From positions 1 through 40,735 of the forward strand of contig NZ_MWLO01000142.1 in the NCBI RefSeq assembly GCF_002198735.1: 40,735 nt of DNA, read 5' to 3'. Under the pieces are notes generated by a model, which ran no database searches, was not told where the DNA came from, and was given only the letters and a program-made list of their open reading frames with translations. This stretch comes from Ideonella sp. A 288. GTDB taxonomy: Bacteria; Pseudomonadota; Gammaproteobacteria; Burkholderiales; Burkholderiaceae_C. Shown here one piece after another: positions 1,050-31,160 of the stretch. Made by a program: the position numbers and the translations under genes. Every line of letters begins with the position of its first letter. Positions within the stretch are counted from its first letter, which is position 1.

Positions 1050-2267
1050 ATGATGTACCAGGCCTACCAGGCACAGTCGGATCTGATGTGGCCGATGCGC
1101 ACGCTGGCATCGCTGATGCCGCCCGCGCTCGATCTCCATGGCGCCTCGCTGGCCGCGCCGCGCCTGTCGCGCCGGCTGGCGGCGGCCTGCAAGGTGCTGG
1201 ACCTGGCGCAGGTGACGCACAGCTGCCCGCCCTGGGGCATCGACAGCGTGGACGTCAAGGGCGAGGCGGTGCCGGTGACCGAGGAAGAGGTGATGGTCAC
1301 GCCCTTCGCCACGCTGCGGCGCTTTCGCAAGGCCGGTGCGCCCGATCAACCCAAGGTGCTGGTGGTGGCGCCGATGTCGGGCCACTTCGCCACGCTGCTG
1401 CGCGACACGGTGCGCACCGCGCTGGCCGACCACGACGTGCACGTCACCGACTGGCACAACGTGCGCGACGTGCCGCTGTCGGACGGCCGCTTCGGGCTGG
1501 ACGAGTACACCCAGCACATCATCGACTTCCTGGCCGCGATGGGGCCGGGCGCCAACATCATCGCGGTGTGCCAGCCCTGCGTGGCCTCGCTGGCCGCGGT
1601 GGCGCTGATGTCCGAGGACGACCACCCCGCCACGCCCGCCAGCCTGACGCTGATGGCCGGCCCGATCGACTGCCGCATCAGCCCGACCGAGGTCAACAAG
1701 CTGGCCACCACCAAGCCGATCGAGTGGTTCGAGAAGAACCTGATCAGCCGCGTGCCCTGGCGCCACCGCGGTGCGGGCCGCCGGGTGTACCCGGGCTTCG
1801 TGCAGCTGTCGGCCTTCATCAGCATGAACAAGGAGCGCCACACCCAGGCCTTCAAGTCGTACTACAAGCACCTGGTGGACGGCGAGTTCGAGCAGGCCGA
1901 GATCACTCGCACCTTCTACGAGGAGTACATGGCGGTGGCCGACCTGGCCGCCGATTTCTACCTCGAGACGGTGCGCCTGGTGTTCCAGGAGTACGCGCTG
2001 CCCAAGGGCGAGTTGCATTTCCGCGACCGCCTGGTCAACCCGGCCGCGATCCGCCGCACCGCGCTGCTGACGGTGGAGGGCGAGCGAGACGACATCTGCG
2101 CCATCGGCCAGACCCTGGCCGCGCAGGACCTGGCGTCCAGCCTGCGGCCCTACATGCGCACGCACTACGTGCAGCCCAACGTCGGCCACTATGGCGTGTT
2201 CAGCGGCAAGCGCTGGCAGAACCACATCTACCCGGTGGTGCGGGACGTGATCCACGTGTCGCAATAG
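1050..2267 (+). CDS. phaZ: Intracellular polyhydroxyalkanoate (PHB) depolymerase
   Basis: A 405-residue alpha/beta hydrolase that mobilises stored poly-3-hydroxybutyrate granules in the cytoplasm. The N-terminus MMYQAYQAQSDLM is typical of the intracellular PhaZ family, as is the overall length. The CQPC box at residues 174-177 sits where the family has its cysteine nucleophile in place of a serine, and the NVGHYGVFSG segment near the C-terminus supplies the conserved histidine. The ATG at 1050 follows GGAGA at 1041-1045. The reading frame stays open upstream, but that part has no family resemblance. The gene converges on the nif-operon glycosyltransferase gene. It implies that the host stores PHB. 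Confidence 0.93.
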   Translation: MMYQAYQAQSDLMWPMRTLASLMPPALDLHGASLAAPRLSRRLAAACKVLDLAQVTHSCPPWGIDSVDVKGEAVPVTEEEVMVTPFATLRRFRKAGAPDQPKVLVVAPMSGHFATLLRDTVRTALADHDVHVTDWHNVRDVPLSDGRFGLDEYTQHIIDFLAAMGPGANIIAVCQPCVASLAAVALMSEDDHPATPASLTLMAGPIDCRISPTEVNKLATTKPIEWFEKNLISRVPWRHRGAGRRVYPGFVQLSAFISMNKERHTQAFKSYYKHLVDGEFEQAEITRTFYEEYMAVADLAADFYLETVRLVFQEYALPKGELHFRDRLVNPAAIRRTALLTVEGERDDICAIGQTLAAQDLASSLRPYMRTHYVQPNVGHYGVFSGKRWQNHIYPVVRDVIHVSQ

Positions 2268-2281
2268 CGCCGCTGGCCGGC

Positions 2282-2305
2282 CCGCGGTCGCTGATGGCGA
2301 CGCGG
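2282..2305. terminator. Possible bidirectional terminator hairpin
   Basis: CCGCGGTCGC (2282-2291) can pair with GCGACGCGG (2297-2305) with one bulged base and a 5-nt loop. It lies in the 43-bp gap between the convergent phaZ and glycosyltransferase stop codons. There is no U-run, so this is only a candidate. Confidence 0.35.
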
Positions 2306-2310
2306 CCCCG

Positions 2311-3717
2311 TCAGCAGATGGCCTGCGGCGGCAGGCCGCTGCAGTGCCGCCGCCACATCGCGTCGTACAGCGATTCCAGGTCGGTGGTGTAGGCCGGCAC
2401 GTCGAACAACGGCGCGTCCCGCCTCAGCACCTCGAGCCGCGCGCGCAGCGCGGCCAGCCGCGGGGCGTCGGTGGCCAGGGCCACGGCCAGCGCGGCGTAG
2501 TCGTCCAGCGAATGCGTCACCAGCTCGGGCAGGCCCACCGCGTGCAGCAGGCTGCCGGCGACGCGCGACGCGAAGGTGTCGCCGGCGCAGGTGAGCATCG
2601 GCACGCCGGCCCACAGCGCGTCGCTGGCGGTGGTGTGGGCGTTGCAGGGCAGCGTGTCCAGCACCAGGTCGGCCAGCGGCAGGCGGGCCAGGTGCTCGTC
2701 CTGCGGCAGGTGCGGTGCGAACACCAGCCGGTGCGGGGCGACGCCGCGGGCCATGGCCTCGCGCCGCAGGTTGCCCTCGGCGGCCTCGCTGCCCAGCAGC
2801 CACAGTACGCTGCCCGGCGCCTGGTCGAGCACCGTGCACCACAGGCCGAAGACCTCGGGCGTGAACTTGAAGGCCTGGTTGAAGCAGCACAGCACCAGGC
2901 CGTCGTCGGGCAGGCCGGCGGCTGCGCGCGTGGACGTGGCGGCCACCGTGGCCGGCCGGCCGTGCGGCTGGTAGCTGTGCGGCAGGCAGGCCAGCGCCTC
3001 GCTGTAGTCGGCCGCCGCGGCCGCCGGCGTGACGAAGCGGTCGCTCACCAGGTAGTCGCAGAAATCGCCGCCCAGCGTGCCCGGGTAGCCGAGGAAGCCC
3101 ACCTGCACCGGCGCCGGCCGGTAGGTCAGCAGGCTGGTGCGGCTGCCGGCGGTGTAGCCCTTCAGGTCGACGAGGATGTCGATGCCGTCGGCATGAATGG
3201 CGCGTGCCGCGGCGGTGTCGTCGAGCGCGGCGATGTCGTGGAAGCCGTCGAAGGCGGCGGCCAGCCGCTGGCGCATGCCGCCGCCGACATCGGCACCGTG
3301 GCTGTAGGCGTGCAGTTCGAAGCGCGCATGGTCGTGGGCCTCCAGCATCTCCACCATCAGCCAGGCGGTGGCGTGCTGCTGCAGGTCGCCCGACAGGTAG
3401 CCCAGGCGCAGGCGGCGCGGCGCGCTGTCGCCAGCCGTGCCGTGCTCGGTGGGCCGGTCGGCGCCCGGCCCGTGGTGCTGGCCCGCAAACTCGGCGGCCA
3501 GCCGGTCGCGGTCGCCCTGGTTGGCGCGCAGCCGTGCGGCCATCCAGCGCTCGGCGCAGCGGCGCTGCTCGGCGGCGGTGATGCCGGGCAGCGACAGCAG
3601 GTGGAAGGGCGGCGTGGCCGCCGCGTCGGGGTCGGCCAGCGCGGCCAGCGCGCGCGGCCGCCAGGTGTCGAAGTTTTCCCACTCGCACCAGGCGCGGCTG
3701 CGCGCGTAGTGTTTCAC
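2311..3717 (-). CDS. GT41 (SPINDLY/O-GlcNAc transferase-like) glycosyltransferase without TPR domain
   Basis: About 468 residues matching the catalytic half of O-GlcNAc transferases (family GT41), which move a sugar from a UDP donor to Ser/Thr of proteins. Visible markers are LRLGYLSGDLQQHA (about 103-116) with the conserved His115, DGIDILVDLKGYT (177-189), RPAPVQVGFLGYPGT (200-214), CFNQAFKFTP (278-287) with the UDP-binding Lys284, LDTLPCNAHTT (353-363) and FASRVAGSLL (382-391). The usual N-terminal TPR superhelix is missing; only about 100 poorly conserved residues precede the catalytic region. The GTG at 3717 was chosen because the frame further upstream overlaps the preceding gene and has no family match; the start is uncertain. 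It is the last gene of the nifB operon, 31 nt after the HepT-like gene. Target protein unknown. Confidence 0.85.
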   Translation of the reverse strand: MKHYARSRAWCEWENFDTWRPRALAALADPDAAATPPFHLLSLPGITAAEQRRCAERWMAARLRANQGDRDRLAAEFAGQHHGPGADRPTEHGTAGDSAPRRLRLGYLSGDLQQHATAWLMVEMLEAHDHARFELHAYSHGADVGGGMRQRLAAAFDGFHDIAALDDTAAARAIHADGIDILVDLKGYTAGSRTSLLTYRPAPVQVGFLGYPGTLGGDFCDYLVSDRFVTPAAAAADYSEALACLPHSYQPHGRPATVAATSTRAAAGLPDDGLVLCCFNQAFKFTPEVFGLWCTVLDQAPGSVLWLLGSEAAEGNLRREAMARGVAPHRLVFAPHLPQDEHLARLPLADLVLDTLPCNAHTTASDALWAGVPMLTCAGDTFASRVAGSLLHAVGLPELVTHSLDDYAALAVALATDAPRLAALRARLEVLRRDAPLFDVPAYTTDLESLYDAMWRRHCSGLPPQAIC

Positions 3718-3748
3718 CGCGGCGGCCCCGTGGGCTGGGTGGCGGCCG

Positions 3749-4144
3749 TCACGGCGATTCGCCGAACCAGCCGGGCTGCCGGCGGCGCAGCGCGTCGAGC
3801 AGCTCCAGCGTCTGCGGCACCAGGCCGTTGATGGCGTACCAGGTGGCCTCGCGGCGCGGCTGCGCGCTGCCCTGCAGTGCGGCGGGCAGCACGGCCCAGC
3901 CCCGCCAGTCGAGCTGCACCAGCGCCTGCTGCTGCGCCGACGTGGTGCGGCCCAGCGCGTCGACCATCGCGCGCAGGTGGCCCTCGACCGCACCGAGCGT
4001 CAGCGCGCTGGCGAACAGCTCGTCCTCGTCCTGCATCGGGGCCAGCAGCGTGGCGATGGCCCAGCCGTGCTCCGCCACCTGGGCCAGCGGCGGACCGTCG
4101 AGCGAACCCCGGTCGGGCGGGCGCTGGTGCGGCGATGGGGCCAT
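3749..4144 (-). CDS. HepT/HEPN-like (DUF86-type) small protein in nif operon
   Basis: A 131-residue, mostly helical protein. I do not recognise it with certainty. The pattern from about residue 38 onward (DEDELFASALTLGAVEGHL, then LDWRGWAVLPAAL, then ATWYAINGLVPQTLELLDAL) follows the order of HepT/DUF86 proteins: an acidic helix with an IGEA-like turn, a W-x-x-I/W-x-x-L/M-R-N segment, then W-x-x-I-x-x-x-L-P-x-L. The RNase motif R-X4-6-H of active HEPN toxins is not present: the LRN equivalent reads LPA and no His follows. No MNT nucleotidyltransferase partner is adjacent. It starts 14 nt after the 2Fe-2S ferredoxin stop and has no clear Shine-Dalgarno sequence. The reading frame is supported by its place in a tightly packed operon. 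Function unknown. Confidence 0.68.
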   Translation of the reverse strand: MAPSPHQRPPDRGSLDGPPLAQVAEHGWAIATLLAPMQDEDELFASALTLGAVEGHLRAMVDALGRTTSAQQQALVQLDWRGWAVLPAALQGSAQPRREATWYAINGLVPQTLELLDALRRRQPGWFGESP

Positions 4145-4158
4145 GTCGTGGCGGAGGT

Positions 4159-4461
4159 TCAGCCCGACATGGCGCCGAGCAGTTCCACCGTCAGGGGCTC
4201 GGTGCCCACCACCACCTGGCAGGCCAGGCGCGACTTGGCTCCGATGCCCACCAGCGTGTCGAGCTTGGCGTTCTCGGCCGGGCCGATGCGGTTGATGCCC
4301 TTGCGGCCTTCGGTGACGAAGATGTGGCATGAGCCGCATTCGGCCTTGCCGGTGCACTTGTCGAGCAGTTGCTCGCCGGCGTCGATCACGGCCTTGAGCA
4401 GCACGGTGCCGGGCTCGACTTCGACGGTCTTGCCCGAGGGGCGGAGGGTGATGGTGGTCAT
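4159..4461 (-). CDS. 2Fe-2S ferredoxin, nif-associated
   Basis: A 100-residue plant/adrenodoxin-fold ferredoxin. Cys36, Cys42 and Cys45 form the C-X5-C-X2-C loop, and Cys81 in RLACQ completes the [2Fe-2S] site. The N-terminal beta-grasp strands (ITLRPSGKTVEVEPGTVLLKA) are typical. Similar proteins in nif clusters (FdxD or FeSI/Shethna-type) are thought to donate electrons to, or protect, nitrogenase; which of these roles applies here cannot be told from sequence. It lies 42 nt downstream of the SIR2-like gene in the nifB operon. Confidence 0.9.
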   Translation of the reverse strand: MTTITLRPSGKTVEVEPGTVLLKAVIDAGEQLLDKCTGKAECGSCHIFVTEGRKGINRIGPAENAKLDTLVGIGAKSRLACQVVVGTEPLTVELLGAMSG

Positions 4462-4503
4462 GGCAGGGGGTGTCCGTGGGGTCGGTCGGTGGAATCGATG
4501 GGG

Positions 4504-5346
4504 TCAGGCGGTGGCCGTGGCGCCTGCGGCCAGGCGCGCCGCCACCTCGGTCAGCGGCAGCGCGATGCGGGTGATGCCCTGCTCCTCGAGGAAGCGCGCT
4601 TCCATGCGCGTGGGCTCGTCGGGCAGCACCGCGAAGTGCGGGCCGGCGCTGCGCTTCATGATCTGCCGCGCAAAGGCCCGCGGCAACTGGTCGTTGAAGC
4701 GGCAGCCCAGGAAGACGAAGCCCAGGCTGGCGCGTCGCTGCTGCACGAGCGCGGGGATCGGCGTCTGGATGTCGATCTCGGTCAGCACCTCGACGAAGTC
4801 GGAGTCCGAGACGAGGAAGTTGCCCGACGGCACGCGGCCGCCCCAGGGCTTGTAGAGCACCGTGCGCGCGGCCACCGGGTCGGGGCTGGGCGTGCCGTCG
4901 GGCAGCGTCCAGCCGGTCCAGGTGCCGAAGTGCTCGCTCTGGCTCAGGCCCTGCACCTCGGCCCAGTCGCTGCGCGCGGCCAGCGCCTGGCGCAGCGTGT
5001 CGTCGTACCAGGTGTCGACGATCACCGGGCTGCCCAGCGTGGCCAGCCAGCGGTGCAGCGCAGACGGCGCGGCGGCTTGCTTGAACGCCTCGTTCATCGC
5101 CGACACCAGCGTCTTGCGGTGCTTGAAGTTCTCGATGAACTGCGCCGCGGCGGTGAGCCGGTTGCGGATCTTGCCGGGCACCGACACGCGGGCGGTCAGC
5201 ACGGCGGCCAGGGCCACCGGGTCGGCCGGCGGCGTGGGGCCGTCGCACAGCGCCAGCATGCCGGGCCCGAGGTAGGGCGCCAGCGTGCCGGCGGCCAGGC
5301 CATCGGCCACGGTGGCGGGCAGGTCGTACAGAGTGGAAGACGGCAT
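4504..5346 (-). CDS. SIR2-like (SIR2_2) protein lacking the NAD-site Asn and His
   Basis: A 280-residue protein with the SIR2_2 layout: an N-terminal LAPYLGPG segment (22-29) in the place of the GAG(S) nucleotide loop, LHRWLATL (97-104), PVIVDTWYDDTL (107-118) in the place of the TTNYD motif, VLYKPWGG (163-170) in the place of K-L-H-G, FLVSDSDFVEVL (177-188) for the T-x-x-D-Y element, and FVFLGCRFNDQLPRAF (210-225) for the F-x-G-x-S-x-x-D-x-x element. The Asn of TTNYD is Trp113 and the His of KLHG is Trp168, so NAD hydrolase or deacetylase activity looks unlikely. It lies in the nifB operon, 23 nt after the DegT-like gene. The ATG at 5346 is preceded only by a weak GAAAG. Role in nitrogen fixation unknown. 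Confidence 0.82.
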   Translation of the reverse strand: MPSSTLYDLPATVADGLAAGTLAPYLGPGMLALCDGPTPPADPVALAAVLTARVSVPGKIRNRLTAAAQFIENFKHRKTLVSAMNEAFKQAAAPSALHRWLATLGSPVIVDTWYDDTLRQALAARSDWAEVQGLSQSEHFGTWTGWTLPDGTPSPDPVAARTVLYKPWGGRVPSGNFLVSDSDFVEVLTEIDIQTPIPALVQQRRASLGFVFLGCRFNDQLPRAFARQIMKRSAGPHFAVLPDEPTRMEARFLEEQGITRIALPLTEVAARLAAGATATA

Positions 5347-5369
5347 GGGGGGCTTTCGAGGGGGAGGGA

Positions 5370-6593
5370 TCAGTAGATGGCGGCGCCCGCGCCGACGTTG
5401 ACCGACGAGTCCTTCAGCGTCTCGACGATGAAGCGCACGTGGTCGGCGTCGAGCCCGGCGTGGAAGGGCAGGGCCACCGCGCGGTCGGCGATGCGCTCGG
5501 CCAGCGGGAACTGGCCACGCAGCCAGCCCTGCTGGCGGTAGGCGAACTGCTGGTGCAGCGGCTGGCACCAGCGCGCCGCCTCGATGCCCTCGCCGGCCAG
5601 GTCGTCGACGATCTGCGCGCAGGCGCTGGCGGTGAAGCGCTGGCCCAGGTGCACGACGAAGAGCATCCAGTGCACGGCGTCCACACCGGCCGCGCGGAAC
5701 GGCGGCTTGATGCCCTCGAAGCTTTGCATGCGGTCGAGGTACAGCGCGGCCACGGCGGCGCGCCGCTCCAGCAGCTCGGGCAGCCGCGCCAGCTGGCCGG
5801 CGCCGAGCGCGGCGGTCAGCTCGCCCATGCCGGCCTGCAGGGGCACGCGCGCGCCCACCGACACCGAGCGCCGGTCGGCCAGAGACCGCGAGCGCAGGTA
5901 GCGCAGTTCGGTGGCCAGCGCGTCGTCGTCGGTGACCACCATGCCGCCCTCGCCGCAGCACAGCGCCGCCGGCTGCGAGAAGTCGAACACCGACAGGTCG
6001 CCGAAGCGGCCCACCGGCTGGCCGCGCCACAGCGAGCCGATGGCCTCGGTGGAATCCTCGATCAGCGCCAGGCCCTGGCGGGTGGCCAGGGCGCGCAGGG
6101 CCGTCCAGTCGGCGGGGTGGCCGTTCACGTTGCCGGCCAGGATGGCGCGGGTGGCGGGCCCGATCTGCGCCGCCGCGCGCAGCGGGTCGAGGCAGCCCGT
6201 CCAGTAGTGGATGTCCGACAGCACCAGCCGCGCGCCGGTCAGCGTCACCGCGTGGGCCACCTGGTGCCAGCCGTTGGGCGAGGCGATCACCTCGTCGCCC
6301 GGCCCGATGCCCAGCGCGCGCAGGGCCAGCCAGGTGCCGAGCGTGCCGCTGGCCACCGCGACGGCGTGCCGGCGGTTCAGCGAGTCGGCGAACTGGCGCT
6401 CGAAGTGAGCGACCATGCGCCCGCCGGACAGGCGAGGCTGCGCCAGCGCGGCCTGCACCAGGCCGAGCTCGACGTCGCCCAGGTCGGGCTGGCTCAGCGG
6501 GATCTCGGCCTCGACCTCGCCGAGGTCCGCATCGGCCGCGCGGGGGTCGCCCTCGGCCGGATCGACGAGTTCGGGGACGAGGGCCTTGTCCAT
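5370..6593 (-). CDS. DegT/DnrJ/EryC1/StrS-fold protein without catalytic lysine
   Basis: 407 residues with the fold-type I PLP aminotransferase pattern of the DegT family. AVASGTLGTWLALRALGIGPGDEVI (79-103) is the phosphate-binding start. LIEDSTEAIGS (177-187) keeps the ring-binding Asp180. The core DFSQPAALCCGEGGMVVTDD (204-223) keeps Ser206 and the GEGG turn but has Ala-Ala where the family has the Schiff-base Lys, and is about two residues shorter. The whole protein has only three lysines (3, 296 and 394), none near the site. Ordinary sugar transamination is therefore improbable. The ATG at 6593 overlaps the TGA region of the gene before it by spacing of 2 nt, implying coupled translation. 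The first 30 residues are acidic. Function in nif unknown. Confidence 0.87.
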   Translation of the reverse strand: MDKALVPELVDPAEGDPRAADADLGEVEAEIPLSQPDLGDVELGLVQAALAQPRLSGGRMVAHFERQFADSLNRRHAVAVASGTLGTWLALRALGIGPGDEVIASPNGWHQVAHAVTLTGARLVLSDIHYWTGCLDPLRAAAQIGPATRAILAGNVNGHPADWTALRALATRQGLALIEDSTEAIGSLWRGQPVGRFGDLSVFDFSQPAALCCGEGGMVVTDDDALATELRYLRSRSLADRRSVSVGARVPLQAGMGELTAALGAGQLARLPELLERRAAVAALYLDRMQSFEGIKPPFRAAGVDAVHWMLFVVHLGQRFTASACAQIVDDLAGEGIEAARWCQPLHQQFAYRQQGWLRGQFPLAERIADRAVALPFHAGLDADHVRFIVETLKDSSVNVGAGAAIY

Positions 6594-6595
6594 GT

Positions 6596-6880
6596 TCAGG
6601 CCAGGTCGGACACGAAGAGGCCGGCGGCCCGCGCCGCATCGGTGGTGACCTGCCAGCAATGGCCGTCGCTGGCGCCGAAGTACAGCGCGCGGCGGCTGCC
6701 GCTGGCGACGGGGATTTCGCCGCGCATGTCGAAGGCATCGACCACCACCACCTTCAGCGCGCCGTGGCGTGCCCGCAGCGCGGCCGCGGCCTCGCGCACG
6801 GTGCCAGCGGCCTCGGCGATGGCCAGGGCCTCCTGCAGCGCCACGGCGTCCATGGTGGACGATGCAGGCAGGGTGCTCAT
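6596..6880 (-). CDS. Small conserved nif-operon protein of unknown function
   Basis: 94 residues. A helical N-terminal half (MDAVALQEALAIAEAAGTV, then VREAAAALRARHG) leads into LKVVVVDAFDMRGEIP and SDGHCWQVTTDAARAAGLFV, suggesting a small alpha/beta domain with a single Cys near a His. I do not recognise a named function. The start ATG overlaps the nifT stop as ATGA (6877-6880), and the stop lies 2 nt from the DegT-like start, so translation of nifT, this gene and the DegT-like gene is probably coupled. Proteins of this size occur next to nifT in other diazotrophs as far as I recall; that recollection was not checked. Confidence 0.75.
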   Translation of the reverse strand: MSTLPASSTMDAVALQEALAIAEAAGTVREAAAALRARHGALKVVVVDAFDMRGEIPVASGSRRALYFGASDGHCWQVTTDAARAAGLFVSDLA

Positions 6881-7089
6881 TCCGCCGACAGCCTGCGCGC
6901 CTCGACCGTGATCGGCAGCGAGGTGCCCTCGGCCATCTCGGGCAGCGCCAGGGTCCAGCCGTTGGCCAGCGTGATGGTGCCGCCCCACAGGCCGGGCAGC
7001 TCCTGCGACACCACCGGCTCCTCCAGGTCCTTCTTCGGCACGTAGGCCGAGAGCACTCCGGCCGCATTGCGGCGCATCATCACTTTCAT
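6877..7089 (-). CDS. nifT: NifT/FixU protein
   Basis: 70 residues with the full NifT pattern: MKVMMRRN at the start, LSAYVPKKDLEE (13-24), WGGTITLANGWTLALPEM (35-52) and LPITVEARRL at the end. NifT is a small conserved protein of nif operons; mutants in other species show little phenotype and its role is unclear. CTGGAG precedes the ATG at a good distance. It lies 36 nt after nifS and overlaps the next gene by ATGA. Confidence 0.95.
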   Translation of the reverse strand: MKVMMRRNAAGVLSAYVPKKDLEEPVVSQELPGLWGGTITLANGWTLALPEMAEGTSLPITVEARRLSAE

Positions 7090-7125
7090 GGGTTTTCTCC
7101 AGGGGGTCGATCGGTTCGGTTCGTG

Positions 7126-8292
7126 TCAGTCGAGGGCCGCACAGGTGTCGGCGGCCTCGCGGGCCAGCAGCGGGGCGATCGCGCGCACCGCGGCGTCCAG
7201 GGCCCGTTCGATCTCGTCGGCGCGGGTGTCGCGGCCCAGCGAGAAGCGCACGCCGGCCTTGGCCTGCGCGGCGCTCAGGCCCATGGCCAGCAGCACGTGC
7301 GAGGGCTGCGTGCCGCCGGCACTGCAGGCCGCGCCCGACGAGGCCACCACGCCGGCGCGCTCCAGGCGGTCGAGCACGCGCTCGCTGTCCAGCGTGCCGA
7401 AGCGCAGGCAGCAGGTGTTCGGCAGCCGCTCGGCCGCATCGCCCAGCAAGCGCGCCTCGGGCAGGGCCTGCAGCAGCCCGGATTCGAGCCGCTGGCGCAG
7501 CTGCGCCATGCGGGCCAGGTCGGCGCTGAGCGTGTGCGCGGTGCGCTCGCAGGCGGCGGCGAAGCCGGCGATGCCGGGCAGGTTCTCGGTGCCGCCGCGG
7601 CGGTGGCGCTCCTGCCGGCCTTCCAGCAGCGGCTGCAGCGCCAGGCCCTTGCGCACCAGCAGCGCGCCGATGCCCTTGGGGCCGTGCAGCTTGTGCGCCG
7701 ACACGCTGGCCAGGGCGATGCCGCTGCCGGCGAAGTCGAAGTGCGACTTGCCCACCAGCTGCGTGGCATCCACGTGCAGCGGGCAGCCGGCCTCGTGCGC
7801 CAGCGCGGCGAGGGCGGCGATCGGCAGGTGCACGCCGGTCTCGTTGTTGGCGCCCATCACGCTGACCAGGGCCACGTCGGGGCCGATCAGCGCGCGGGCG
7901 GCCGCCAGGTCGAGCCGGCCCTGCGCGTCCACCGGGATCAGGTCGACCGGCACGCCCTCGGCCTGCAGCCGGCGCGCCAGGGCCAGCAGGCCGGGGTGTT
8001 CCACCGCCGACAGCACCAGCCGGCGCCGCTCGGTGCCGCGGGCCAGCGCCAGGGCGCCGCGCACCGCCATGTGGTTGGCCTCGGTGGCGCCGCTGGTGAA
8101 CACCAGCTCGGCACCCTGGCAGCCCAGGAAGCTGGCCACCCGCGTGCGCGCATCGACCAGCAGCCGGCGCGCGCGCTGGCCCGGCGCGTGGGTGGACGAC
8201 GGGTTGGCCCAGGCGCCCTGCAGGGCGTCGAGCATCTCGGTCACCACCTCGGGCGAGGGGGCGGTGGTGGCGTTGTGGTCGAGGTAGATCAT
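7126..8292 (-). CDS. nifS: Cysteine desulfurase NifS
   Basis: 388 residues. A PLP enzyme that takes sulfur from cysteine for nitrogenase Fe-S cluster assembly, normally delivering it to NifU. The family start MIYLDHNATT is present. The PLP lysine is Lys201 in SAHKLHGPKG, the ring-stacking His is in AVEHPG (96-101), and RRGGTEN (231-237) is the conserved substrate loop. The persulfide-forming Cys323 is in SSGAACSAG. The length is normal for NifS. Its ATG overlaps the stop of the preceding gene as ATGA (8289-8292). No nifU is found in the window, so the scaffold must be encoded elsewhere or replaced, perhaps partly by the IscA-like protein of this operon. Confidence 0.95.
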   Translation of the reverse strand: MIYLDHNATTAPSPEVVTEMLDALQGAWANPSSTHAPGQRARRLLVDARTRVASFLGCQGAELVFTSGATEANHMAVRGALALARGTERRRLVLSAVEHPGLLALARRLQAEGVPVDLIPVDAQGRLDLAAARALIGPDVALVSVMGANNETGVHLPIAALAALAHEAGCPLHVDATQLVGKSHFDFAGSGIALASVSAHKLHGPKGIGALLVRKGLALQPLLEGRQERHRRGGTENLPGIAGFAAACERTAHTLSADLARMAQLRQRLESGLLQALPEARLLGDAAERLPNTCCLRFGTLDSERVLDRLERAGVVASSGAACSAGGTQPSHVLLAMGLSAAQAKAGVRFSLGRDTRADEIERALDAAVRAIAPLLAREAADTCAALD

Positions 8293-8714
8293 GGCCAGTA
8301 CACCCGGTCGGGGTCCTCGCAGACCAGGGCCAGCGCCTCGGCCAGCGACAGGTCGTCGGCGCGCGGCTGCCAGGCGCCGGCGGCGTGGTCGCGCGACAGC
8401 ACCGACCAGCGCCCGTCGCCCTCGGGCACGAAGCGGGCGATGTCGATCTCGCCGCCCTGCTTGTCGATGCTGCGCGAGCAGTTGGGGCTGGCGATGCGCC
8501 AGCCGTCGCCGTCGCGCTCGACGTGCGGTTGCACGTAGCGGTAGCGGGTGCGGCGGCGCAGGGCAGTTTCGATGCGGCGGCGGTCGAGTTCGACCACGGC
8601 GCCGCCCGGGCCGCCCGGGTTACCCGGGCCACCTGGCCCACCCTGGCGTGTGGGCGGCGGGCGCGAGCGGCCATTGCCGCCGCCGCGCCGTCCCGGGGCG
8701 GGCCGTGGGGTCAC
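8289..8714 (-). CDS. Conserved nif-operon protein with Gly-Pro-rich N-terminus
   Basis: 141 residues. The N-terminal 40 residues are low in complexity and include a collagen-like run of GGP/GNP triplets (about 25-38). The folded part follows: RRIETALRRRTRYRYVQPHV (46-65), DGWRIASPNCSRSID (70-84), GGEIDIARF and LSLAEALALVCEDPDRVYW. The SPNCSRSID segment and the closing W-P are probably family signatures. I do not recognise a function. The GTG start overlaps the stop of the NifZ-like gene as GTGA (8711-8714), and its own stop overlaps nifS, so it is translated as part of a coupled nifZ2-this gene-nifS block. Confidence 0.78.
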   Translation of the reverse strand: MTPRPAPGRRGGGNGRSRPPPTRQGGPGGPGNPGGPGGAVVELDRRRIETALRRRTRYRYVQPHVERDGDGWRIASPNCSRSIDKQGGEIDIARFVPEGDGRWSVLSRDHAAGAWQPRADDLSLAEALALVCEDPDRVYWP

Positions 8715-9001
8715 GCCAGCGCCTCCGGGGCAGCCGCCGGGGCTGCCAGCAGGCGCCCGGCCTCGGCGGCGGGCAGCAGCTCTTCCTCGAGGCAGCCCAG
8801 CACGCACAGGCCGAAGTCGACCATGTACAGCGGCAGGTTGGCCTCGGCGTGGTGGCCGATCTGCACGATCTCGCCGGGGCCGCCGGCGACGATCAGCAGG
8901 TGGTCCTCGGGCACCTCGGGCACGCTGCCGTCGTTGTACAGGTCGACGGCCGCGACGACGGACTGGCCCCAGGCGTACTTGGGTTCGCGTGGATCGATCA
9001 T
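8711..9001 (-). CDS. NifZ-like protein (second, shorter copy)
   Basis: 96 residues with the NifZ core: PKYAWGQSVVAAVDLYNDGSVPE (7-29, the G-x-x-V-x-x-x-x-x-x-x-N-D-G element), LLIVAGGPGEIVQIGHHAE (35-53) and YMVDFGLCVLGCLEEELL (59-76, the V-x-F-x-x-x-x-V-G-C-x-E-x-E-L element). NifZ acts in maturation of the second P-cluster of the MoFe protein. This copy lies directly after the longer nifZ in the same operon, 21 nt apart, and has its own cysteines (about 66 and 70). It may have divided the role with its neighbour. Confidence 0.83.
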   Translation of the reverse strand: MIDPREPKYAWGQSVVAAVDLYNDGSVPEVPEDHLLIVAGGPGEIVQIGHHAEANLPLYMVDFGLCVLGCLEEELLPAAEAGRLLAAPAAAPEALA

Positions 9002-9022
9002 GGCGGGTGGTTCCTCGTTGGA

Positions 9023-9403
9023 TCAGCGCAGCGCGCGCAGGGCGGTGATGGGGTCGGTGAGCGAGGCGCCGGGGGTGCCACCGGCCGGGCCGAACTTCTC
9101 GGCCAGCACGGCCAGCACCTCGGGCGGCAGGTGGTCGAGCGTGCACAGCTCCTTGGCGCGCATGCCGACGCGGTGGCCCGATTCGACGAACTCGACCTCG
9201 TAGATGTAGAACTGCTGCAGGAAGGTGCCCACCGAGCGCACGTAGCCGAGCTGGCCCTTCTGCACCAGCACCTCGCCGATGTCGCGGCCCTGGAAGGTGC
9301 CGTCGTTGCGCACCACGCTGCGGCAGACCACGCGCTCGCCGATGTCGAAGCGCGGCGGGTGGGCAAGTTCGACCTCGCCGTCGTCGCGGGCGATGTCAGC
9401 CAT
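9023..9403 (-). CDS. nifZ: Nitrogenase maturation protein NifZ
   Basis: 126 residues. The NifZ domain is clear: FDIGERVVCRSVVRNDGTFQG, then GEVLVQKGQLGYVRSVGTFLQQ, then IYEVEFVESGHRVGMRAKELC. NifZ helps form the P-cluster of the NifDK protein. The ATG at 9403 gives an acidic lead of about 15 residues before the domain; an open frame further upstream overlaps the LRV gene and was not used. The start overlaps the LRV stop region (9396-9398), consistent with coupling. Its C-terminal tail of about 35 residues (LPPEVLAVLAEKFGPAGG and onward) is beyond the core domain. Confidence 0.93.
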   Translation of the reverse strand: MADIARDDGEVELAHPPRFDIGERVVCRSVVRNDGTFQGRDIGEVLVQKGQLGYVRSVGTFLQQFYIYEVEFVESGHRVGMRAKELCTLDHLPPEVLAVLAEKFGPAGGTPGASLTDPITALRALR

Positions 9404-10244
9404 GGGAGGCCTCCAGTTCGTCCTGTCGTTGGGCGGCGCGCTCGCGCACGTCGGGTTCGTCGTCGCGCAGCAGACGCTGCAGCAACGCGCCTTGTGCGCG
9501 GCCGGCCACGGTCCAGCGCACGGTCCAGTCGGTGTCGTGCGACAGCGCATCGAGCAGCGGCGCCGGCAGGCGCTCGGCGACCACGCGGCGCACCTCGGGC
9601 GCCGGGTCGGCCACCAGGCCCAGCAGTGCCGGCATGGGCAGCCGCAGTGCCACCTCGCCGCGCACCTGGCGGTCGGGGTCGTGCATCAGCGCGGCCAGCA
9701 GCGGCGGCGCGATGCGGCGGGCCACGACCAGCCGAACGGCCTCGTCGACATCGCCCAGCAGGGCCGGCAGTTCGGCCTCGGCCAGGCGCCAGGCCACGCG
9801 CAGGCGCACCTCGCGGTGCGGGTCTTGGCGCATCCGAGCGAGCAGGCGTTGCGGCAGCCGCAGGGCCACCTGCAGGCGCACGGTCTCGTCGGGGTCGTCC
9901 ATCAACGCCGGCAGGCTGAACAGCTCGACATGCCGTGCCGCGATCGCCCGCACCTCGAAGTAGGGGTGCTGCAGGTGCGCGCCGGCCAGGGTCGGGTGGC
10001 GGCGGAAGAAGCGGTCGATGCGGCGCGCGTAGGCGTCCTGCATGCAGCAGCGGCCGGGCTCGCAGCCGCCGTCGTCGGCGCTGCGTGCGCGCAGCACGTG
10101 ATGGGCGCAGGCGGTGCAGTCGATGGCGCGGCCCTGCCAGTCGCGGGCGGGGATGTCGTCCCACGCCGGTGACCGGCTGCCCGATCCGTCGGGCAGGGTT
10201 GCGGCAGCCGGCGCGGGCGTGTCCATGGCGGCGTCAGGCGGCAT
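9396..10244 (-). CDS. LRV protein: Fe-S cluster domain plus leucine-rich variant repeats
   Basis: Up to 282 residues. The N-terminal part carries a cysteine cluster, Cys43, Cys46, Cys61, Cys66 and Cys67, within CTACAHHV and CEPGRCCMQDAYARRIDRFF. This is the [4Fe-4S] module known from the Azotobacter LRV protein. From about residue 88 to the end run repeats of roughly 24 residues of the type L-x-x-L-x-x-D-P-D-x-x-V-R-x-x-V-A-x-R-L, forming an alpha/3-10 right-handed superhelix. Genes of this type sit in nif clusters, but their function is not established. The first ATG (10244) overlaps the previous gene by 11 nt. An in-frame ATG at 10226 is the alternative start; neither has a clear ribosome site. 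Confidence 0.9.
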   Translation of the reverse strand: MPPDAAMDTPAPAAATLPDGSGSRSPAWDDIPARDWQGRAIDCTACAHHVLRARSADDGGCEPGRCCMQDAYARRIDRFFRRHPTLAGAHLQHPYFEVRAIAARHVELFSLPALMDDPDETVRLQVALRLPQRLLARMRQDPHREVRLRVAWRLAEAELPALLGDVDEAVRLVVARRIAPPLLAALMHDPDRQVRGEVALRLPMPALLGLVADPAPEVRRVVAERLPAPLLDALSHDTDWTVRWTVAGRAQGALLQRLLRDDEPDVRERAAQRQDELEASHG

Positions 10245-10866
10245 CCGGCGGCGCCAGGGGGCGTTCGGCGGCGTTCGGCCGGCCGGAGGCGCGGGCCCAG
10301 GCCGCCGCGCCGAAGACCGGCGGGGCCTCGTCGCCGGTGGGCGCGTCGTCGTCGAGTTCGCCGACCAGCGCGCGCACGCGCACGGCCTCGATCAGCGCGC
10401 CGCCGACGCGGTCTTCGGGGTCGAGCTCGCGCAGCTTGGCCAGCGCGTCGCGGGCCTCGACGGCGTCGTCCAGGCGCAGGCTCAGGTAGGCGTAGCCCTT
10501 CAGTACGAACAGGTAGAAGCGGGTGCGCGCCTCGGTGCGCGCGCCGGGCAGCGGCTGCCCCGGCACGTCGCGCCACACCGGTGGCAGGCCCAGCGCCTGC
10601 GCACCGACCACCAGCGCCCGGCGCGCCACGTCGCGCGCGGCGGCCAGCCGGTGGCCGTAGAAGTGGTGGCGGTAGAAGGCGATCAGCACCGCCGGGTGCC
10701 CCGGCGCCAGGGCCTGCGCCCGCATCAGCTGGGCCATGGCCTGGCTGGGGTCCTGGCCGCGCAGTTCGCCGGCCAGGCGCAAGGCCGCTTCGGCCTGCGC
10801 CGGCAGCCCGGCGCCGAGCACCGCGTCGTCGAAGTCGACGGCCGGGTCCATGGCGTCAGGCCGCAT
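10234..10866 (-). CDS. TPR-like helical protein in nif operon
   Basis: 210 residues, predicted all-helical. The segments AEAALRLAGELRGQDPSQAM, AQALAPGHPAVLIAFYRHHFYGHRLAAARDVARRAL and RFYLFVLKGYAYLSLRLDDAVEARDALAKLRELDPED have the spacing of tetratricopeptide-like helical pairs, including the D-P turn. The C-terminal 40 residues are low in complexity (Ala/Pro). The start at 10866 has AAGGTG six bases upstream; an in-frame ATG at 10851 is possible. It lies 3 nt after the IscA-like stop. A protein-protein adaptor role is inferred from the repeats only. Confidence 0.75.
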   Translation of the reverse strand: MRPDAMDPAVDFDDAVLGAGLPAQAEAALRLAGELRGQDPSQAMAQLMRAQALAPGHPAVLIAFYRHHFYGHRLAAARDVARRALVVGAQALGLPPVWRDVPGQPLPGARTEARTRFYLFVLKGYAYLSLRLDDAVEARDALAKLRELDPEDRVGGALIEAVRVRALVGELDDDAPTGDEAPPVFGAAAWARASGRPNAAERPLAPPDAA

Positions 10867-10869
10867 GCG

Positions 10870-11265
10870 TCACACCTTGGCGACGCGCTTGATCGAGCCG
10901 GCCAGCACGCTGGCCTCGGCCGGTCGCGCCGGGGCGGCATCGCCCGAGGTCGAGCAGCCGCAGGCCGCCTGCGCCGGGTTGAAGAAGGTCAGGCCGCCCT
11001 GCGTGGGCGACTCGGAGAAGTCCACCGTCACGCCGTCGAGCATCAGGCGGCTCTCGGCGGGCAGGAACAGGCGCAGACCGTTCACCGCCACCACGGCGTC
11101 GCCGTCGCGTGGTGCGGCTTCCACCGTGAATTCGCTCGAGTAGCCCGAGCAGCCGCCGGGCGACACCGTCAGGCGGAAGCCGCCGGTGGGGTGCTCGGAG
11201 AACCGCACCATGCGGGCCATGAACTTTTCCGCCGCGGCGGTGACGGTCATCTGGGGTTGCAGCAT
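10870..11265 (-). CDS. HesB/IscA-type Fe-S carrier (nif IscA-like)
   Basis: 131 residues. It has the three A-type carrier cysteines: Cys39 in SPGGCSGY, and Cys102 and Cys104 in AACGCS. These bind an iron or Fe-S cluster for transfer to target proteins. The N-terminus AAEKFMARMV and the strand pattern fit the HesB fold. Beyond the CGC motif is an extra tail of about 27 residues rich in Ala, unlike the usual IscA of about 107 residues that stops soon after CGC. A second start (MTVT, ATG at 11250) is possible. It lies between fdxN and the TPR-like gene and is a likely partner of NifB/NifS cluster assembly. Confidence 0.9.
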   Translation of the reverse strand: MLQPQMTVTAAAEKFMARMVRFSEHPTGGFRLTVSPGGCSGYSSEFTVEAAPRDGDAVVAVNGLRLFLPAESRLMLDGVTVDFSESPTQGGLTFFNPAQAACGCSTSGDAAPARPAEASVLAGSIKRVAKV

Positions 11266-11273
11266 CGGGGGCC

Positions 11274-11468
11274 TCAGGCTTTCTTGATGCAGCCGTCGAC
11301 CGGGCACACGGCCACGCACTGCGGCGCGTCGAACTGGCCTTCGCACTCGGTGCACTTCTTCGGGTCGATGGTGTAGGTGCCGCCCTTCTCGCGGATGGCA
11401 ACGTTGGGGCACTCGGGCTCGCAGGCCGAGCAGGCGGTGCACATGGAGGCGATGATCTTCAGGGCCAT
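11274..11468 (-). CDS. fdxN: 2[4Fe-4S] ferredoxin FdxN
   Basis: 64 residues. The first motif has Cys10, Cys13, Cys16 and Cys20 (C-X2-C-X2-C-X3-C-P). The second has Cys39, Cys42, Cys51 and Cys55 (C-X2-C-X8-C-X3-C-P), with a further Cys60. The eight-residue spacing in the second motif marks the Alvin-like ferredoxins that accompany nifB. FdxN is known in other diazotrophs to support NifB in FeMo-cofactor synthesis or to carry electrons to nitrogenase. It lies 66 nt downstream of nifB, with CAGGAGAAC upstream of the ATG. Confidence 0.94.
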
Positions 11469-11534
11469 GGGGTTCTCCTGGGGGGTGTGGTGGGGAGGGG
11501 GAAGCGGTTGCCGGCTGGACGCGTTTTTGGAAGG

Positions 11535-13124
11535 CTAGGCGGCGGATTCGACGGCGCCGGTGAACGCACCCTGGCGGATGCGCGCATCGCCGCGCGGCTG
11601 GTGCACGATGGCGCCGCTGGCCACGCGGGCGCAGTAGTCGGCAAACCACTGCAGCGCGGCCTTCTCGATGAAGTCGTGCGCGTACTGGTCGACCGGTTCG
11701 ATGCCGGCGGCGGTGAGTTCGTCGCGCGGGCAGGCGCCGATCTTGGACACCAGCACCGCATGGCAGTCGTTGATGGCGCTGACGATGGACGGCAGCTGCT
11801 CGTCCTCGCCAAAGCCGCCCTGGCAGTACAGGTCCACTCGGCGATGGCCGACGAAGAGCGCCTGCTTGCGGCTGACTTCATAGATCTGGAATTCGGTGGC
11901 GTGGCCGAAGTGCTGGTTGACGCGGCCCTGGCCCTCGGTGGCCACGGCCACGAGCACGCTCAGGTCCTCTTCACCGGCAATGAGGCTGGCGTCCAGCGCA
12001 TCGGCCAGCGCGTCCACCTTGGCCTGGTGCTGGGCCGCCCGCTCGGCCTCCACCTTCTGCTGGTAGGCGCGGCGCTTGTCGATGTCGTACACCACGTCCA
12101 TCGCCTCGATCTTGTCGAGGGTGAACTCCTCGCTGCGGTCCTCGCCCAGCAGGCCCACCGCATCGGCGCGGCACTGGCGACAGTGGCGCATCAGGTTGGC
12201 GCCGCCCATGCACGCATCCTGCACGGCCTTCAGCTCCTGTGCGGTGGGGCCGCGCTGGCCGGTCAGGCCGAAGACGGTGCCGTGCTCGGCCTCGCTGATC
12301 AGCGGCATGATGTTGTGCAGGAAGGCGCCGCGCTTCTTCACCTCGCGGTTCACCTCGATCAGGTGCTCGTCGTTGATGCCCGGGATCAGCACCGAGTTGA
12401 TCTTGGTGAGCACGCCGCGGGCGGTGAGCATCTCCAGGCCCAGCATCTGCCGCTCGTGCAGGATCTTCGCGGCCTCGTAGCCGGTCACACGCTTGTGGTC
12501 CCAGAAGATCCAGGGGTAGATCTTCTCGCCCACCGCCGGGTCGACCATGTTGATGGTGATGGTGACGTGGTCGATGTTGTACTTGCAGATCTCGTCGACC
12601 ATGTCCGGCAGCGCCAGGCCGTTGGTGGACAGGCACAGCTTGATGTCCGGCGCCTTCTCTGACAGTTCGCGCATGGTGTCGAAGGTCTTCTTCGGGTTGG
12701 CCAGCGCGTCGCCCGGGCCGGCGATGCCCAGCACCGTCATCTGCGGGATCTCGCTGGCCACCGCCAGCACCTTCTTCACCGCCTGCTCGGGCGTGAGCTT
12801 CTGGCTCACCACGCCGGGGCGGCTTTCGTTGCTGCAGTCGTACTTGCGATTGCAGTAGTTGCACTGGATGTTGCAGGCCGGCGCCACGGCCACGTGCATG
12901 CGCGCAAAGTGGTGGTGCGCCTCTTCCGAGTAGCAGGGGTGGTTCTTGACCTTCTCCCAGATCTCGGCCGGCATGTCGTCGGGGCCACCGGACGAGCCGC
13001 AGCTGGCCTTTCCCTCGCCGCCCTGCGTGCTGCAGCCGCCGGCCGCCACCTCGACGGGGGCACTGACCGCACTGCGGCCCTTGCGCAGGTCGCCGATCGA
13101 AACAAACGCCGTGGTGCTGGACAT
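11535..13124 (-). CDS. nifB: FeMo-cofactor biosynthesis radical SAM protein NifB
   Basis: 529 residues. NifB fuses two [4Fe-4S] clusters and inserts a SAM-derived carbide to make NifB-co. The radical SAM motif is Cys84-X3-Cys88-X2-Cys91 within [25 protein letters not shown] (134-144) is the conserved SAM-domain segment, and [15 protein letters not shown] (315-329) holds the extra cysteines for a K-cluster. Residues about 387-500 form the C-terminal NifX/NafY-like domain ([18 protein letters not shown] and onward) that binds the product. The N-terminus has an additional Cys-Gly-rich stretch (about 29-47). It is the first gene of the long leftward nif operon, with a sigma-54 promoter about 42 bp upstream of the ATG. 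Confidence 0.97.
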
Positions 13125-13165
13125 GGGGGACGCCTCGGTGTGCAGGTGGGAGTTGAGTCCCCCAT

Positions 13166-13181
13166 TGCGAGAGGCGTGCCA
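13166..13181 (-). promoter_or_regulatory. Sigma-54 (RpoN) promoter of nifB operon
   Basis: Read on the minus strand, TGGCAC-GCCTC-TCGC matches the -24/-12 consensus TGGCAC-N5-TTGC in all but one base, with exact GG-to-GC spacing. The start site would fall near 13155, about 30 nt upstream of the nifB ATG at 13124. A NifA site and an IHF-like site lie upstream. Confidence 0.88.
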
Positions 13182-13209
13182 GACCGTGCCGGCCGGAAAA
13201 AGCCTTGTG

Positions 13210-13222
13210 GATCAGGGGCTTG
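13210..13222 (+). promoter_or_regulatory. IHF-like site, nifB promoter
   Basis: GATCAGGGGCTTG fits WATCAA-N4-TTR with two mismatches. It sits between the UAS (13248-13263) and the sigma-54 element, as IHF does in NifA-activated promoters. A weak match, supported mainly by position. Confidence 0.45.
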
Positions 13223-13247
13223 GCGCTGTCGGCCGGGCCGTGCCGGC

Positions 13248-13263
13248 TGTTGGGTTGGCGACA
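13248..13263. promoter_or_regulatory. NifA upstream activator sequence (UAS), nifB
   Basis: TGT-TGGGTTGGCG-ACA is a perfect TGT-N10-ACA element. Its centre lies about 82 bp upstream of the sigma-54 element centre, the usual distance for NifA activation through DNA looping. Confidence 0.85.
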
Positions 13264-13412
13264 AACCCGACAGGTGGCGGAGCGCTCGCACGGCGGGCGG
13301 GGCGTGGCTATGATCCGCGGGCCGGCCCGGGGCCACCGGGCCCGGCCACGGCACCGTCGGGTCGCGACGGGGTCGCCGCGCCTCCTCGAACCCCCTCACC
13401 GAAGGAACGCAG

Positions 13413-14177
13413 ATGGATCTCGGACTCAAGGGCCTGAAGGCCATCGTCACCGGCGGCACCAAGGGCATCGGACGCGCCATCGCGCAGACGCTGGCCGCCG
13501 AGGGCGCCGACGTGGCGCTGTGCGCCCGCAACGCCGCCGAGGTCGCGGCCACCGCGGCCGATTTCGGCCAGCGCTATGGCGTCAAGGTCGTCGGCCGCGC
13601 CGTCGACGTGGCCGACGGCCCCGGCCTGGCCGCCTGGGTCGACGAGTCCGCCGCCGCGCTGGGCGGCATCGACATCGTGGTGGCCAACGTCAGCGCGTTG
13701 GCCATCGCGCCCGACGAGGCGGCGTGGCAGAAGGGCTTCGAGGTCGACATGATGGGCACGGTGCGGCTGGTCAATGCCGCGATGCCCTGGCTCGAGAAGA
13801 GCACGAACGCGTCGATCGTCACCATCTCCAGCGTGTCGGGCCGCGAGATCGACTTCGCCTCCGGCCCCTACGGCGCGTTCAAGGCGGCCATCATCCACTA
13901 CACGCAGGGCGTGGCCTACCACCTGGCGGGCAAGCGCATCCGCGCCAATTCGGTGTCGCCCGGCAACACCTATTTCGAAGGCGGTGTGTGGGACCAGATC
14001 GAGCACGGCAACCCCGAACTATTCAAGCTGGCCATGAGCCTGAACCCCACCGGGCGCATGGGCACGCCGCAGGAGATGGCCAATGCGGCGGCCTTCCTGG
14101 CCAGCCCGGCGGCCAGCTTCATCACCGGCACCAACCTGGTGGTCGACGGCGCGCTGACCAAGGGCGTGCAGTTCTGA
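13413..14177 (+). CDS. SDR family oxidoreductase
   Basis: 254 residues, classical short-chain dehydrogenase/reductase length. The dinucleotide-binding motif is TGGTKGIG (13-20). The active site has Ser139/140 and Tyr153-X3-Lys157 (Y-G-A-F-K). ANVSAL (91-96) stands in the place of the NNAG motif. The C-terminal segment with ASFITGTNLVVDGAL is typical of fabG-like SDRs. GAAGGAA precedes the ATG at a good distance. The cofactor-preference residue after strand 2 is Arg39 (CARN), which leans toward NADP(H). The gene diverges from nifB; nothing ties it to nitrogen fixation. Confidence 0.9.
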   Translation: MDLGLKGLKAIVTGGTKGIGRAIAQTLAAEGADVALCARNAAEVAATAADFGQRYGVKVVGRAVDVADGPGLAAWVDESAAALGGIDIVVANVSALAIAPDEAAWQKGFEVDMMGTVRLVNAAMPWLEKSTNASIVTISSVSGREIDFASGPYGAFKAAIIHYTQGVAYHLAGKRIRANSVSPGNTYFEGGVWDQIEHGNPELFKLAMSLNPTGRMGTPQEMANAAAFLASPAASFITGTNLVVDGALTKGVQF

Positions 14178-29220: not shown

Positions 29221-31041
<1,821 letters not shown>

Positions 31042-31160
31042 CACGCACCTCTTTCGTCCAGTGTGAGCGGCCCGCCGGTGCGGCGCGCCGTCCGCCAGTG
31101 CATGCCGCGCATCGTTGTCGGGCGCGCGGCGCCGCACGGCGGGCCTGTCGGACGTCAAGT

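Follow-up and report, generated by a model that had tools for sequence, protein, structure and literature searches.

The tail of the nifB operon of Ideonella sp. A 288 encodes a group of nif-dedicated pseudoenzymes that probably support nitrogenase by binding and not by catalysis. The tail lies in a window of 40,735 nt (contig NZ_MWLO01000142.1, assembly GCF_002198735.1), by which we mean the whole stretch of DNA that was analysed. Its two main subjects are a protein with the fold of the DegT sugar aminotransferases and a protein with the SIR2 fold, both of which have lost catalytic residues. The genes of the tail are the following:

6596..6880, minus strand: gene for a 94-amino-acid DUF6129-like protein, between nifT and the DegT gene
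5370..6593, minus strand: gene for the DegT-fold pseudoenzyme, with the catalytic Lys replaced by Ala and the phosphate-site Ser by Asp
4504..5346, minus strand: gene for the SIR2-fold pseudoenzyme, with both Asn and His replaced by Trp
4159..4461, minus strand: gene for a 2Fe-2S ferredoxin (Fdx) with a Fer2 domain
3749..4144, minus strand: gene for a protein of probable HepT/HEPN fold according to its structure model, without a conserved R-X4-6-H
2311..3717, minus strand: gene for a GT41 domain protein (PF13844), the GTG start being our choice

From the 94-residue gene through DegT, SIR2, Fdx and HepT to GT41, these genes are separated by 2, 23, 42, 14 and 31 nt.

The SIR2 family is almost confined to genomes with nitrogenase genes in our samples of the order and of the phylum, and its gene lies next to nifT or near nifHDK. 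Among the 300 genomes of the order sample, 48 have the SIR2 gene, 48 have nifD and 47 have both; that is, the family occurs in 47 of the 48 nifD genomes versus 1 of the 252 others (Fisher P about 1e-52, uncorrected for relatedness). The exceptions are G135, with SIR2 only, and G132, with nifD only. For this sample, nifD was counted at E <1e-30; 66 genomes gave some match and 48 passed this threshold, 46 of them over the profile cut-off and two as fragments. The phylum sample of 299 genomes has SIR2 in 16, of which 14 have nifD over the cut-off and two only a nifE-level match; there, the nifD profile matched 42 genomes at 1e-60 and 39 over the cut-off, with G366, G470 and G538 scoring about 275–310 bits, which is the nifE level.

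The DegT family is narrower. We compiled 79 nif-positive genomes, namely 90 minus 11 with completeness <90 or contamination >5; two of them, G591 and G596, are included because they have SIR2. The SIR2 family is present in 58 of the 79, with 16 of these belonging to a distant group described below, and in 56 of 77 when G591 and G596 are set aside. DegT is present in 28 of the 79, and all 28 also have SIR2 of the window's own group (group I) and nifV over the cut-off. Stated in terms of nifV, DegT occurs in 28 of the 70 nif-positive genomes with nifV over the cut-off versus none of the 9 without. It may be that symbionts drop DegT, a suggestion that rests on few genomes, some of the nine nifV-less ones possibly being assembly gaps. 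In one genome (G047, contigs C18 and C39), both SIR2 and DegT are present twice.

The neighbourhood of the SIR2 gene was read in 80 named loci, the best 80 of 557 relatives, which lean to beta lineages; SIR2 is in every one because the loci were selected for it. Of these, 67 hold >4 kb upstream, where same-strand nifT is found in 67, nifS in 65, nifB in 62, DegT in 60 and the DUF6129-like gene in 59. Genes downstream of SIR2 were counted by targeted searches, clustering of open reading frames having given mostly shadow frames; of the 70 loci that extend >4 kb past SIR2, 55 have Fdx and 31 the HepT-like gene. A flavin adenine dinucleotide (FAD) amine-oxidase-like gene lies just 3′ in 30 of 110 loci, and a frataxin gene is found in 2 of 110. 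The usual order is DUF6129-DegT-SIR2-Fdx, often followed by the FAD amine-oxidase-like or the HepT-fold gene. In one locus (L058, 11177–12796), the former lies between Fdx and the HepT-like gene. The frataxin (CyaY) genes are in two Azohydromonas records (L037, 11268–11624, and L032), in the nif tail and beside the HepT-like gene, and in Methylococcus sp. EFPC2, in a nif cluster carried on a plasmid, a BolA family gene stands directly 3′ of SIR2 (L111, 17638–17907).

The arrangement has variants. On a Rhizobium tropici plasmid, SIR2 follows nifT and DegT is not nearby, and in Bradyrhizobium sp. BWA-3-5, a nifT-SIR2 pair is separate from DUF6129-DegT, the DegT gene being unannotated and in two pieces; the gene set can therefore be split in alpha lineages. 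Paraburkholderia sprentiae has the DegT gene, and its SIR2 is only a 129-residue open frame. On its nif plasmid (strain WSM5005; L155, 7976–11041), the nifS-like gene is annotated short, at 420 bases, and the cluster looks degraded.

The window's SIR2 protein matches PF13289 with E 1.7e-18 (67.5 bits against a cut-off of 24.5). Both catalytic residues are absent from it: the Asn site reads DTWYDD and the His site KPWGG. Its structure model (predicted local distance difference test, pLDDT, of 87.3) gives a Foldseek match to ThsA (E 2.6e-10, probability 1.00), and the 50 structural rows shown for this model are chains of ThsA, DSR2, KomBC and HAM-SIR2. Across the 110 aligned rows of group I (108 distinct), the Asn site is Trp in 109 and Gly in one, and the His site is Ile in 47, Trp in 35, Leu in 24, Phe in 2 and Met in 2. 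A further 37 rows were read, representing 29 distinct genes, eight of which occur twice; these rows exclude pieces of <180 residues (L130–L134) and further copies of the genes from the window and from G264 (L114, L115). Seven of the 37 have neither residue, 11 have His only, 19 have Asn only, and none has both. The His-only rows have Trp at the Asn site and come partly from Rhizobium and Bradyrhizobium plasmids, the others being from genomes outside the class. The Asn-only rows make up the distant group, 27–30% identical to the window's protein, with Met or Leu at the His site.

This distant group was followed further in a class sample of 369 genomes, screened for the group itself and not for nifD. 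Its profile matched 27 genomes, 18 strongly and 9 weakly, the window's group I protein being among the weak matches. In 26 proteins of the group, 11 of them from loci new from the class sample, His is absent from all 26 (Met in 18, Leu in 8), and Asn is present in all 22 for which the script read the site; L205, which the pattern missed, was separately read as Asn plus Met. The nifH gene lies within the fetched stretch in 13 of the 26. A search of plasmids for the distant group gave only matches of <60% identity, none listed under Pseudomonas. One locus of the group has a rhodanese-ankyrin protein gene near the SIR2 gene (L151, 9353–10108). Which half of the catalytic pair is missing therefore varies between SIR2 groups, the pattern expected if catalysis is unimportant. 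The most conserved SIR2 stretch is SDxDxVExLTEIDIQTPIP, and it contains residues 182–193, the sole interior segment that the model places at pLDDT <50. It is tempting to propose that this stretch is a candidate partner-binding loop.

The window's DegT protein matches PF01041 over its length (E 4e-82; 276.8 bits against a cut-off of 19.8), and the closest solved structure to the family profile is perosamine synthetase (3bn1, E 1.7e-72). In the window, Ala is aligned with the lysine that binds pyridoxal 5′-phosphate (PLP), five residues before GEGG. We read this site in 96 homologue rows from nif loci, six of which do not cover it; the other 90 (88 distinct sequences) have Ser in 67, Gly in 13, Leu in 6, Ala in 2 and Cys in 2, and neither Lys nor His in any. 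A second, overlapping set, compiled by genome (29 proteins, 28 genomes), gives Ser 17, Gly 9, Ala 1, Leu 1 and Gln 1, again with no Lys. Five residues ahead of the Lys site, where we take the DegT enzymes to have their phosphate-binding Ser, Asp is found in 90 of 90 rows, and the Asn-x-Arg site contributed by the partner chain has also changed, with Arg in 1 of 91. What is kept is the Asp that presumably faces the PLP ring nitrogen (90 of 90), together with a Glu (90 of 90) and a Trp in the position we assume to be that of the stacking aromatic (88 of 88 covering rows). Judged by these residues, the family has lost the catalytic lysine and rebuilt the phosphate site, and it is neither an aminotransferase nor a dehydratase of the ColD type, the latter because His is absent at the Lys position. 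The pyridoxamine 5′-phosphate (PMP)-dependent dehydratases ColD and E1 carry His in place of that lysine.

Both families show their losses across nif loci, so the losses characterize the families and do not reflect the decay of a single genome. The original prediction, made from the window's letters, had described apparently dead DegT and SIR2 folds next to a ferredoxin, a HepT-like protein and a glycosyltransferase, and much of this description stands. The assignments of the DegT fold without its lysine and of the SIR2 fold with Trp in both places are borne out, as are the gaps of 2–42 nt, and the conservation of the losses holds in all DegT rows (Lys in 0 of 90) and in the SIR2 rows, none of which has both residues. 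As for homologues that keep their catalytic residues, no DegT row has the Lys, and some SIR2 members keep one residue and none both. The neighbourhood recurs across nif loci and so is not limited to this genome; the recurring part comprises DegT, SIR2 and, frequently, Fdx and the HepT-fold gene, to the exclusion of GT41 (1 of 110 loci). Likewise, the proposed co-occurrence holds for SIR2 with nifD (47 of 48 in the order) and for DegT within SIR2 (28 of 28) and fails for GT41. The DegT gene was wrongly placed directly after nifT, since the 94-residue gene intervenes.

The prediction had also stated that no function is described for the set, which agrees with what we found for the DegT protein and needs qualifying for the SIR2 protein. 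PST1325 of Pseudomonas stutzeri A1501 adjoins nifH in the published gene table and is induced under nitrogen fixation (PMC2820453); its non-polar inactivation left 23% nitrogenase activity, the lowest of the nine mutants in Table 2 of that paper (PMC2820453). It is named a SIR2 family protein elsewhere (PMC11332353). In Rhodobacter capsulatus, Rcc03262, a SIR2 family protein beside NifT, is given in Table 1 of a published study as not found in the nifA mutant (PMC6925177), and ZMO1821 of Zymomonas has been proposed to be a likely deacetylase (PMC8600466). For DegT in nif clusters, the literature yielded one relevant listing: among the genes that nod-independent bradyrhizobia have in common and B. 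japonicum USDA110 lacks are BRADO5410–5418, with 2Fe-2S ferredoxin, DegT, NifZ, LRV, TPR and SufA-like genes, and the cluster (BRADO5414, 5416, 5418 and 5424 are named) is also shared by Azorhizobium and is missing from three rhizobia that do not fix nitrogen in the free-living state (PMC3899966). The passages and listings on DegT and SIR2 in nif clusters contained no account of the loss of catalytic residues or of the function of the DegT protein.

We propose that both proteins act through binding. The SIR2 protein would be the core adaptor for nitrogenase or for a maturation form bound by NifT or NifZ, meeting its partner through the SDxDxVExLTEIDIQTPIP loop; its Rossmann-type fold may still hold a dinucleotide or a related ligand. 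The DegT protein would be an add-on scaffold that positions the dedicated 2Fe-2S ferredoxin, whose electrons would feed a reductive Fe-S step in the maturation or upkeep of nitrogenase, mainly in free-living fixers. Such a step is the most natural place for them because the neighbours are NifS, NifZ, IscA-like and FeS-LRV proteins. A bolder proposal, which we find rather doubtful as a whole and offer tentatively, is a general platform of retired enzymes for nitrogenase assembly and upkeep, in which many proteobacterial nif systems would use the dead SIR2 adaptor and the free-living fixers would add the dead DegT scaffold with its own ferredoxin, delivering reducing power to a new cluster-maturation or repair step.

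The smaller partners were characterized as follows. Fdx matches Fer2 (E 1.3e-8), as had been predicted, and its best row among Protein Data Bank (PDB) structures is 3ah7 (E 1.9e-13); against TIGR02007, the equivalog of the iron-sulfur cluster (ISC) ferredoxin, it scores 58.8 bits, under the cut-off of 132.1. The HepT-like protein has no Pfam match, and Foldseek alone found no match for its model at E 0.001; the AF2 model (pLDDT 91.7) has HepT/HEPN chains as its seven best rows in a second structural comparison, which suggests that fold. In the 36 rows of its family, no alignment column has His in half of them, and any R-X4-6-H string is present in just 10, in keeping with the predicted lack of a conserved motif. 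Family searches with the 94-residue protein itself gave no match worth the name; of its homologues, that of L112 is above the PF19624 cut-off and that of L111 below it.

The GT41 protein matches PF13844 (E 5.7e-95, 319 bits). TPR repeats usually precede a GT41 domain; here, as had been noticed, none was matched at E 1 or better. Of 110 loci, 74 of them with >2.5 kb of sequence following SIR2, only the window's has the gene at this operon place. Relatives occur in 35 of 50 nif- or SIR2-positive genomes; those of >54% identity are only in its own genome and in a congener, G591, and only in these two does the gene share a contig with nif genes and lie no more than 150 kb from them, with the reservation that fragmented genomes could hide linkage. 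The congener's relative (68% identity) occupies a different place in the nif region, flanked by genes that we read as nifHDK on one side and nifE on the other, and has a DUF2779 gene as neighbour (L164, 6515–8167); one relative of 53% identity adjoins genes read as flagellins. GT41 is thus outside the conserved set, a lineage-specific rider confined to this genus as far as seen.

Several points weigh against binding proteins dedicated to nitrogenase. The SIR2 family is absent from 21 of the 79 nif-positive genomes, so nitrogenase can do without it, and G135 carries the gene without a nifD match. No interaction, complex or mutant was seen for the DegT, Fdx or HepT genes. PST1325, which provides the mutant, is very probably a member of the distant group, an assignment based on its published name (SIR2) and on its gene order beside nifH, and Rcc03262, ZMO1821 and BRADO5411 are likewise taken from their published names and not from their own sequence. 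The loss of textbook residues is compatible with new chemistry and does not exclude it. The gene cluster is also reported to be up-regulated in Azorhizobium bacteroids, which speaks against a purely free-living role (PMC3899966). Finally, the ratio of nonsynonymous to synonymous substitution (dN/dS) between the window and close relatives is 0.39–0.84 for the tail genes and 0.22–0.36 for nifB, nifS and nifT, which at face value indicates weaker constraint; we do not rely on these values because third positions are saturated by the G+C bias.

The likeliest of the alternatives is new chemistry. In such a case, the DegT protein would use another cofactor or substrate and the SIR2 protein another NAD route, and the retained ring-nitrogen Asp, Glu and stacking Trp of DegT, its new invariant Asp, the glycine-containing start kept by SIR2 and the long invariant blocks in both families would all be accounted for. 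We nevertheless regard this as unlikely: two features of the DegT rows speak against PLP, namely Asp for the phosphate Ser in 90 of 90 and an Asn-x-Arg site that keeps its Arg in only 1 of 91, and the SIR2 groups, having lost different catalytic halves, look more like a relaxation of catalysis than like a single new mechanism. It is very improbable that the SIR2 protein works as a lysine deacetylase and so adjusts nitrogenase through acetylation, the role proposed for ZMO1821. Such a role would agree with the SIR2 annotation, with up-regulation under N2 fixation and with an acetylome study (PMC8600466), but no SIR2 member read has both catalytic residues (ZMO1821 itself is not among them), and the structural rows shown are, all 50 of them, ThsA, DSR2, KomBC or HAM-SIR2 chains.

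The original prediction saw in these genes a four-protein cassette in which DegT, SIR2 and HepT hold a maturation intermediate and the GT41 enzyme glycosylates it. The common strand and close spacing in the window and the 68% relative in the congener's nif region fit such a cassette, to which we nonetheless give hardly any credence: a modifier that only one locus of 110 has at this place, that lies near nif genes in its own genome and G591 only among 50, and whose relative in one case stands beside genes read as flagellins, is not supported as part of the system. Equally hard to credit is the idea that the SIR2 and HepT folds are left over from anti-phage or toxin-antitoxin systems, trapped in the operon and drifting along. 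Their nearest folds, ThsA and DSR2 for the one and HepT for the other, are what this idea would predict; the near-perfect co-occurrence with nifD in the order, the long invariant blocks across classes, the nifA-dependent presence of one reported member (PMC6925177) and the phenotype reported for the PST1325 mutant (PMC2820453) are not. Nif-dedicated pseudoenzymes that act by binding are therefore the reading we prefer.

The remainder of the operon, from its head at nifB to nifT, is as follows:

13248–13263: NifA-type TGT-N10-ACA site, upstream of nifB and of its -24/-12 site
13166..13181, minus strand: sigma54-type -24/-12 site TGGCACGCCTCTCGCA, 41 nt upstream of nifB, with one mismatch
11535..13124, minus strand: nifB, the operon head (PF04055 and PF02579)
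11274–11468, minus strand: fdxN
10870–11265, minus strand: IscA-like gene, named from its sequence and the annotation of the same-place genes in L111 and L155
10234–10866, minus strand: TPR-like gene
9396–10244, minus strand: LRV FeS protein gene
9023–9403, minus strand: nifZ-like gene, named in the same way as the IscA-like gene
8711–9001, minus strand: nifZ
stop at 8289, start uncertain, minus strand: DUF3024 gene
7126..8292, minus strand: nifS, named from its own sequence and same-place homologues (that of L111 is annotated as a class V aminotransferase)
6877..7089, minus strand: nifT (PF06988, TIGR02934)

Neither a sigma70-type promoter nor a minus-strand terminator pattern was found in 2100–13500, and from these patterns it is plausible that nifB to GT41 form one transcript, as predicted. 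The candidate sites 5′ of nifB would fit control by NifA and sigma54. In the window, the -24/-12 pattern is found 4 times versus 0.88 expected, and TGT-N10-ACA is at chance level (3 versus 3.41). A NifA-type GAF-sigma54 activator gene lies at 29221–31218 on the minus strand, and nifD of this genome is on a different contig. At the other end, a polyhydroxybutyrate (PHB) depolymerase gene (1050–2267, plus strand) converges with the GT41 gene. A second nif operon occupies 33568–39663 on the minus strand, with nifV (TIGR02660 over the cut-off), a NifW domain protein gene, two genes of the electron transfer flavoprotein (ETF)/FixAB type, a FixC-like gene, a weak FixX-like match and a rubrerythrin-like gene; it has an exact sigma54-type site at 39487–39502 and a TGT-N10-ACA at 39571–39586.

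A full list of nif accessory parts is needed for moving nitrogenase into crops and other hosts. Databases label the two families as aminotransferase and as SIR2 family protein, and every nif-locus member read lacks the residues for these activities; the losses weaken leads such as the deacetylase role in Zymomonas and point to binding assays. In the samples searched, the SIR2 family occurs almost only where nitrogenase genes do, and roughly three quarters of the nitrogenase activity of P. stutzeri depends on a probable member, so that the question is directly testable in laboratory diazotrophs.

How, then, do these proteins compare with known systems? With perosamine synthetase and the other DegT/DnrJ/EryC1/StrS sugar aminotransferases, the nif DegT protein shares the full-length fold, GEGG in most members, the ring-nitrogen Asp and the stacking aromatic; it differs in having lost the catalytic Lys, the phosphate Ser and the Asn-x-Arg site, in its C-terminal NVGAGAAIY signature and in its nif linkage. 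The PMP-dependent sugar dehydratases ColD and E1 are also DegT folds without the usual Lys, whereas the nif proteins have no His there in 90 of 90 rows. The SIR2 NADases of defence systems (ThsA, DSR2, KomC) are alike in fold, but the nif SIR2 protein is a nif-linked single domain of about 280 residues whose catalytic pair is incomplete in every member read. Fdx resembles the ISC-type 2Fe-2S ferredoxin in its Fer2 domain, its C-X5-C-X2-C spacing and 3ah7 as best PDB row, and differs in scoring under the family cut-off and in its place in a nif operon. Unlike HepT/HEPN toxins, the HepT-fold protein belongs to a family without a conserved R-X4-6-H, and its gene is flanked in the window by those of Fdx and GT41 and not by that of a nucleotidyltransferase antitoxin. 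A parallel in gene context is with the accessory proteins NifT, NifZ and NifW, which are also encoded in nif operons and are helpful more than strictly essential; in contrast to these, the window's proteins are large and built on dead enzyme folds.

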